This document shows, piece by piece, positions 62,197 through 63,248 of a DNA stretch of 64,000 nt. Positions within the stretch are counted from its first letter, which is position 1; every line of letters begins with the position of its first letter. The notes below the pieces were generated by a model. That model did no database searches. It was not told the DNA's origin and was given only the letters and a program-made list of their open reading frames with translations. The translations under genes and the position numbers were made by a program. This stretch comes from Longimicrobium sp. (GTDB lineage: Bacteria; Gemmatimonadota; Gemmatimonadetes; Longimicrobiales; Longimicrobiaceae): positions 1-64,000 of the forward strand of contig DASUYB010000089.1 in NCBI GenBank assembly GCA_036377595.1. Reading direction: 5' to 3'.

Positions 62197-62430
62197 TTAC
62201 GCGCCGTTGGCCGCCCGCGGCTCGCGGCGGAGGATGCGGGCCAGCGTGGGGCGGGAGATGCCGAGGAGCCGGGCCGCCGCGCTGCGGTTGCCGCCGGTGA
62301 GCTGCAGGGTCACCGCGGCGGCCTCGCGCTCGATCTCCTCCAGGCTCTTCCCCTCGTGCGGGATGCGGATCTCCGCCGCCGCGGGAAGGTTGGGCGACGC
62401 GCCCGAGCGCGCGGTGCGGTACTGCACCAC
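62197..62430 (-). CDS. Fis-type HTH-only protein
   Basis: 77 residues from a GTG. The C-terminal half, LEEIEREAAAVTLQLTGGNR with SAAARLLGISRPTLARILRR, is the HTH_8 (Fis) domain that ends NtrC-type sigma54 activators. No receiver or AAA+ domain precedes it. In-frame codons just upstream (LSAEGPAILAGNL) also look like an NtrC linker, so this may be the stump of a larger activator or a small DNA-bending protein. It lies downstream of the RiPP precursor on the same strand, after a strong hairpin. Confidence 0.65.
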   Translation of the reverse strand: MVQYRTARSGASPNLPAAAEIRIPHEGKSLEEIEREAAAVTLQLTGGNRSAAARLLGISRPTLARILRREPRAANGA

Positions 62431-62473
62431 CAGGTTCCCGGCCAGGATCGCCGGCCCCTCGGCCGAAAGCGCG

Positions 62474-62509
62474 AAGGGCCGCGGCTCGGGGTGAGCCGCG
62501 GCCCTTCGT
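62474..62509 (-). terminator. Hairpin between RiPP precursor and HTH gene
   Basis: GAAGGGCCGCGGCTC pairs with GAGCCGCGGCCCTTC around GGGGT. On the minus strand it follows the precursor stop by about 20 bases and is followed by GCGCTTTCGG. Confidence 0.7.
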
Positions 62510-62528: not shown

Positions 62529-62792
62529 TCAGAAGCCGCAGTGCTTGTAGTCGAGCGTGCAGCTCACCCACTCGGTCTCTTCGCCGCAGGTGTCGCCGGC
62601 GCTGTAGTAGCCACCGCCGCCACCGCAACCGGCGTAGCACGAGTAGAACGCCGAGCACCCGTCGCCGAGGTCCGAGGCGCCCGCCTCGGTGCCGGACTCG
62701 TGCGCGTTCACCGTACCGGTCGCGCGGTCGGTGGTGCGGGTGGTGAACGATTCCACGCTCAGGTCGTCGAGGTTCAGGCTCAGCTTCTTCAT
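62529..62792 (-). CDS. Pinensin-like RiPP (lanthipeptide-type) precursor
   Basis: 87 residues; AGAAGGA lies about 10 bases before the ATG. The leader MKKLSLNLDDLSVESFTT is the conserved opening of pinensin-type precursors from Bacteroidota and Longimicrobium. A Thr/Ala-rich stretch (GTVNAHESGTEAGASD) precedes a core with six Cys (46, 52, 56, 69, 78, 85), many Gly/Tyr/Ser and a C-terminal KHCGF. Ser/Thr/Cys content would allow lanthionine or disulfide rings. No dehydratase, cyclase, protease or exporter gene is in the window, so modification enzymes must act from elsewhere. The product is unknown. Confidence 0.8.
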   Translation of the reverse strand: MKKLSLNLDDLSVESFTTRTTDRATGTVNAHESGTEAGASDLGDGCSAFYSCYAGCGGGGGYYSAGDTCGEETEWVSCTLDYKHCGF

Positions 62793-63248
62793 GGTCCGGA
62801 TATCCTTCTCGGTTTCCCGTTGGGCCGATCCGGGCGCCACGCGCCCGTCGATCGATGCGGCAGCGTGCCGCTCCACGCCGCGCCGTGACGGAGGCGGGCA
62901 TTGCGCCGGTGAGCCCGGCGACGACCCCCGATAAGTCAGGATGTGTGCCGGGCCGGACCCCGCGACATTCTGCGTGTGAGGCGCTCTCCGTGCGGCGGAT
63001 CCGGGGTGCCGGGTTCCCGGTGGTGCAAGGCGTTTTTGCGGAACGAGATGGGGATTCAAGCAAACGCGCACGGAAACACTTATTTGTCCAATCCGGGAAA
63101 CATCTGTCAGAAAATTAGATCCTTACGAGTCCTGAGGAGAAGATGGTACAACGTGGGACGTCCGATCCACAGCCGGTGCGCCATTCCGGCATCTCCTACC
63201 CATGACGCGCGTGGCGGTGTGTGGGGAGTCGCGTCGCATTCGGGGGAA
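62793..63248. other. Spacer upstream of the RiPP precursor
   Basis: 456 bases with an AT-richer part (about 63060-63130). On the minus strand a weak CTGACA-17-ACAAAT pair near 63085-63115 could be the precursor promoter, leaving a leader of about 300 bases. No gene is supported. Confidence 0.35.

Follow-up and report, generated by a model that had tools for sequence, protein, structure and literature searches.

A gene with a pinensin-like leader in Longimicrobium sp. probably belongs to a large, scattered set of class I lanthipeptide precursors modified in trans

A short open reading frame in a 64,000-nucleotide stretch of Longimicrobium DNA (hereafter the window, held on a 292-kb contig, C89) probably encodes a class I lanthipeptide precursor whose leader is pinensin-like. 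This precursor is one of a large set scattered through the genome and would be modified in trans, likeliest by the enzymes of a cluster located on a different contig (C103). The analysis described below shows by computation the gene itself and its family of leaders, the clusters of enzymes, an exact match in occurrence between leader and enzyme, a spacing bias in the cores and the conservation of an orthologue.

The open reading frame occupies the interval given in the original prediction, and its parts are as follows:

62529..62792, minus strand: precursor gene, 87 codons, with its ATG at 62792 and its stop at 62529-62531; the syntenic orthologue is G011:C80:23921-24232
62703..62792, minus strand: leader, residues 1-30, MKKLSLNLDDLSVESFTTRTTDRATGTVNA, fitting the family consensus MxKLxLxLDxLxVESFxTxxxxxxxGTVxA
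62532..62702, minus strand: predicted core, residues 31-87, with six Cys and 10 Ser/Thr

The translated protein (87 amino acids) reads MKKLSLNLDDLSVESFTTRTTDRATGTVNAHESGTEAGASDLGDGCSAFYSCYAGCGGGGGYYSAGDTCGEETEWVSCTLDYKHCGF. Its leader, which had been recognized as pinensin-type, matches the NCBIfam model NF038180 (leader_pinensin) with 22.8 bits (E 6.6e-5) when scored as protein and 24.2 bits when scored in the genomic frame, against a curated cut-off of 24 bits that eight other precursors of the same genome exceed. A regular expression shaped on the leader matched one place in the window; 60 second-order Markov randomizations of the window gave no match. A search with the plus-strand translation returned noise alone, and a search of the genome-contig database with the whole precursor gave no match. 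The six Cys ascribed to the core are present in the translation (positions 46, 52, 56, 69, 78 and 85), while the core would be longer than the proposed 40-45 residues: the conserved leader reaches approximately residue 30 (GTVNA), which would leave nearer 57 residues for the core.

When the target protein was used as a query against its own 7.2-Mb assembly, 134 places matched. A leader HMM, trained on motif matches and applied to the 1.29 Mb fetched around those places, identified no fewer than 215 ORFs with the leader (E<1e-6) and none in these stretches after Markov shuffling; a profile built from 58 leaders gave at least 150 matches in the genome. Nearly all of the leader-bearing ORFs (213 of 215) contain at least two Cys after residue 30. 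The precursors for which a leader start could be placed (also 213) are spread over 54 contigs, some in tandem arrays and many alone; since the assembly has an estimated contamination of 4.8%, a few may derive from another strain. One contig (C20, 11.7 kb; L052, G000) consists almost wholly of tandem precursors, 24 of them. The search for further precursors that had been recommended was thus productive, and the suggestion of a genome with many scattered precursors is borne out. The term 'orphan' needs qualifying: neither LanB nor LanC was found anywhere on C89, so that no modifying enzyme is nearby, but the precursor is not a lone one, because more than 200 same-leader genes and complete enzyme sets share its genome.

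Leader and core differ sharply in composition across the precursors of the target genome, with Cys rising from 0.1% of leader residues to 15.1% of core residues and Lys falling from 7.5% to 0.8%. The cores are hypervariable and rich in Cys and Thr. They carry 6.6 Cys on average, with six as the commonest count; the idea of a six-Cys core as exceptional was accordingly dropped, and the target is typical of its family. The end of the leader is conserved as well: 164 of the 166 aligned leaders have Ala or Gly two residues past GTV, which suggests that GTV-x-[A/G] may mark the cleavage point.

We analyzed the spacing between Ser/Thr and Cys in 111 non-redundant cores of the target genome (723 Cys), taking the expectation from shuffling of each core. 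Ser/Thr was found at position -5 of Cys 266 times against 128 expected (z 13.3) and at -1 296 times (z 14.9), with no excess at -4, -3 or -2. The -5 excess remained when only pairs with no intervening Cys were counted (143 versus 68 expected, z 9.7). It is partly coupled to the motif T/S-C-x-x-x-C, which occurs 97 times against 18 expected, and survives exclusion of that motif: where the Ser/Thr is not directly followed by Cys, the bias has a z of 6.3 in the target genome and 4.5 pooled elsewhere. Four further genomes (G007, G001, G017 and G014, two of them from other genera) replicated the pattern in their 67 non-redundant cores, at both -5 (188 versus 87 expected, pooled z 13.5) and -1 (222 versus 95 expected, z 16.4). 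The -5 spacing fits Ser/Thr-X4-Cys rings that would often overlap, and its doubling over expectation is indirect support for lanthionine rings of fixed size. The high Cys content of the cores would also agree with a secreted Cys-rich peptide that forms disulfides or binds a metal and uses its leader for export alone. We consider that very unlikely, given that 165 of 168 cores contain no fewer Ser/Thr than Cys, that the Ser/Thr-X4-Cys spacing recurs, and that the leader family co-occurs with LanB and LanC (below).

A search for the target locus in sister species by plug proteins placed it in one of them only (G011), where the same flanks, conserved at 76-89% DNA identity, enclose a 103-amino-acid precursor at the corresponding position. 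That orthologue has an additional segment holding three Cys, and its last part retains all six Cys of the target (GCSxYxSCxxGCGGGGxYxSxGDTCGxxTExxxCTxDYKHCG); with 29 of 46 core residues identical, the chance of keeping six of six is approximately 5% when taken alone. In the target, Ser/Thr stand at -5 of C52, C56, C69 and C78 and at -6 of C46 and C85; all six of these positions are also Ser/Thr in the orthologue (the -6 pairs being read from the sequences). The candidate ring pairs in the target would thus be S40-C46, S47-C52, S51-C56, S64-C69, T73-C78 and T79-C85. For the predicted core (residues 31-87) we calculated a mass of 5787.216 Da when unmodified and of 5679.153 Da with six dehydrations. 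Overall 50 of 87 residues are identical, with dN 0.36 and dS 0.35 for the whole pair and dN 0.29 and dS 0.39 for the core, and purifying selection is therefore weak at best.

The following elements surround the gene:

62803..62807, minus strand: ribosome-binding-like AAGGA, 11-15 nt 5' of the ATG (sequence read directly)
62472..62508, strand not assigned: strong GC hairpin with a 16-bp stem, directly 3' of the stop codon (z -4.6)
62197..62430, minus strand: neighboring Fis-type HTH_8 ORF, beyond the hairpin and with no match at the G011 locus

The hairpin is also found 3' of the stop codon in the G011 orthologue (z -6.0). It has no T tract, and so its role as a terminator is only putative; a canonical terminator was not found at the target. 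Lying beyond the hairpin and unmatched at the G011 locus, the HTH_8 ORF is probably outside the precursor system. A search for a common promoter motif upstream of the precursors returned just a Shine-Dalgarno signal and CACCTGC-like k-mers, the latter of which look like Thr-Cys codons of adjacent cores. A decayed or silent duplicate, in which the leader is intact, the core drifts and no product is made, would agree with the dN/dS near 1, with the gene standing alone in its position and with our failure to match a sigma-70-like promoter at the target. We nevertheless judge decay to be quite improbable, as the orthologue has kept its open frame, the six Cys, their Ser/Thr partners and the downstream hairpin, and the target ATG is preceded by a ribosome-binding-like site.

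Lanthipeptide enzymes, whose absence from the genome had been named as a refuting result, are present in two clusters, each with a split LanB, a LanC and an exporter; all three had been named as genes to look for. The C103 cluster encodes, in order, a glutamylation-type LanB (PF04738; best sequence match among PDB entries, 6ec7), a separate PF14028 protein, a LanC, ten precursors, an ABC exporter (lacking a C39 domain), an HlyD protein and an S8 subtilase, for which the best NCBIfam match, QhpE, is under that model's cut-off. The LanC matches PF05147 and is closest to the cyclase domains of LanM proteins (TIGR03897, 245.8 bits). Its zinc ligands C331, C378 and H379, together with H246, are invariant in eight sequences, as are its WCHG and CHG motifs, and its fold matches those of NisC, MadC and LanCL1. 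A LanB-type dehydratase (PF04738 plus PF14028, at both clusters) and a LanC cyclase with zinc ligands are as expected of class I, and the combination of a split LanB with a LanM-like LanC is that of the pinensin family. The genome also encodes a class III LanKC-like protein with RamC_N, kinase and LanC-like domains (L051:7034-9895; G000 C145) and a LanB N-domain-like protein of ∼1387 amino acids (L050:8647-12807; G000 C1), which neighbors an ABC transporter and a large NRPS-looking frame.

The second cluster (C98) comprises a separate split LanB and LanC, an ABC exporter, an S8 subtilase and two leader-related precursors. Its enzymes could make the same kind of peptide from the target, either alone or by sharing precursors with those of C103. 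This seems unlikely to us. The C98 precursors are of a CSxCSx type with atypical leaders, and this type also lies beside LanB in another genome (G013), where it is the only precursor; genomes with large standard-leader sets instead have enzymes of the C103 type (at least 52% identical). Precursors of this CSxCSx or CSGCSxC-run type, each beside its own split LanB, are located at L048:16825-17400 (G000 C98) and L162:11000-11242 (G013 C30).

The LanC of the C103 cluster continues for ∼245 residues past its cyclase domain, with no Pfam match above threshold in that part. A sequence search of this domain against the PDB returned nothing, and fold comparison alone was informative. An AlphaFold2 model of the C-terminal part (pLDDT 81) matched TglI of TglHI (Z 12.8, rmsd 7.4 over 211 residues; the PDB entry names TglHI, and we take the matched chain to be TglI) and NGO1945 (Z 11.2, rmsd 5.1 over 189). 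The last 115 residues matched two leader-bound RRE proteins, TbiB1 (Z 6.5, rmsd 2.6 over 88/88) and lasso B1 (Z 6.3, rmsd 2.4 over 85/85), and also PqqD (Z 6.1). Although Z values of about 6 are modest, the RRE matches form one functional group, and we predict from the model that the domain is RRE-like. This LanC, with its predicted TglI/NGO1945/RRE-like extension, is encoded at L046:13489-15600 (G000 C103:93488-95599), and the possible LanC-RRE fusion is conserved in at least seven genomes. In two papers on RREs (PMC7470986 and PMC12710340) we did not find an RRE described on a LanC. TglI and NGO1945 are partners of MNIO enzymes, a resemblance that would suit modification of the Cys by a different RiPP enzyme, such as one of the MNIO/DUF692 or radical SAM type; this appears highly improbable, as precursors lie within LanB/LanC operons in several genomes.

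The distribution of the leader further favors modification by split-LanB/LanC enzymes in trans. Within the bacterial family, 10 of 21 genomes contain it, in at least 150, at least 150, 149, 86, 78, 50, 20, 12, 5 and 1 copies, and PF04738 (LanB) is found in exactly the same 10; the other 11 lack both. Were the genomes independent, this match would be one arrangement in 352,716, a figure to be read with the caution that the counts come from related genomes, so that events are not fully independent. The split between genomes with both and with neither runs inside genera, namely g1 (7 versus 3) and g5 (1 versus 1). Plain LanC domains are more broadly distributed (13 genomes), and among 395 genomes of the phylum the leader occurs in only 10. 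The LanB-LanC-precursor arrangement is also present in G017, G007 and G001, with the ABC, HlyD and S8 genes where contigs are long enough, and parts of the C103 order recur in G014, G009 and G015, where contig ends interrupt it. Two genomes outside the family (G187 and G185) encode LanB, PF14028 and LanC with a single same-leader precursor, which may represent the state before expansion. Species of one genus (G010, G012 and G016 versus G011 and G014) range from no precursors to ∼150 or more, and these differences accompany gain or loss of LanB. The proposal of modification in trans is supported, and the shared leader and exact co-occurrence suggest that such enzymes act on the target.

We infer from these observations how the precursor might be bound, modified, cleaved and exported, that it may be expressed and active, and which cluster probably acts on it. 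The leader (LxLDxLxVESF...GTVxA) would be bound by LanB and by the RRE-like domain at the LanC C-terminus; the PF04738 protein of the split LanB would glutamylate Ser/Thr of the core, and the separate PF14028 protein would remove glutamate to leave dehydro-amino acids. LanC would couple Cys to Dha/Dhb and so close rings that mostly have the Ser/Thr-X4-Cys form, up to six of them in the target with S47-C52 and S51-C56 interlocked. The leader would be cut, perhaps after GTVNA and by the subtilase of the C103 cluster, and the product exported via ABC/HlyD. More tentatively, and with slightly less than even confidence, we suggest that a single split-LanB/LanC set with a cyclase-fused RRE serves more than 200 precursors per genome under one Ser/Thr-X4-Cys rule, building chains of interlocked rings at T-C-x-x-x-C.

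Pinensin-type clusters with a split LanB and a LanM-like LanC are known (PMC7268733). The pinensins of Chitinophaga pinensis (NF038180) share with the system described here a leader profile that the target matches close to its cut-off, glutamylation and elimination on separate proteins and the LanM-like LanC; they differ in that the present cores are longer, variable and Cys-rich, the precursors number in the hundreds and are scattered, the leader ends in GTVx[A/G] rather than GG, and the host is a member of the Gemmatimonadota. Thiopeptide split dehydratases (TbtB and PF14028 proteins) likewise pair a stand-alone glutamylation protein with a PF14028 partner, whereas here a LanC cyclase is present and the PF14028 protein scores 59.6 bits against a pyridine-synthase model with a cut-off of 325 bits. 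Large scattered sets have been described for the prochlorosins and synechococsins (29 and 79 precursors; PMC10783134, PMC9872173), in which few promiscuous enzymes (ProcM, SyncM) act on many precursors with a conserved leader and a hypervariable core. Those systems are class II (LanM), with Nif11 leaders, GG cleavage and varied ring topologies, whereas the present one has LanB/LanC and its own leader end, its precursors exceed 200 and a single spacing, Ser/Thr-X4-Cys, dominates. The best reading of the target set is a prochlorosin-like library, bigger than the 79-precursor case in the literature that we searched. Three lanthipeptide clusters have been listed for Longimicrobium terrae, with no precursor counts (PMC7291104), and our literature search, of partial coverage, found no report of this precursor set, nor of any such scattered set that is class I or as large. 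Because NCBIfam already holds a model of the leader, single members are probably annotated.

Cyclization of many unrelated cores by one enzyme set is rare in nature, and its best-known cases are class II. If a single enzyme set does serve these precursors, theirs would be the largest natural one-enzyme-set library of cyclic peptides of which we found a description, and class I would have its first example. With over 200 natural substrates and a spacing rule that can be read off, such a class I set would reveal how LanB and LanC combine fidelity to a leader with tolerance of the core, and would supply a large ready-made panel of substrates. It also poses an ecological question, namely why some species of Gemmatimonadota have hundreds of such peptides and sister species none.
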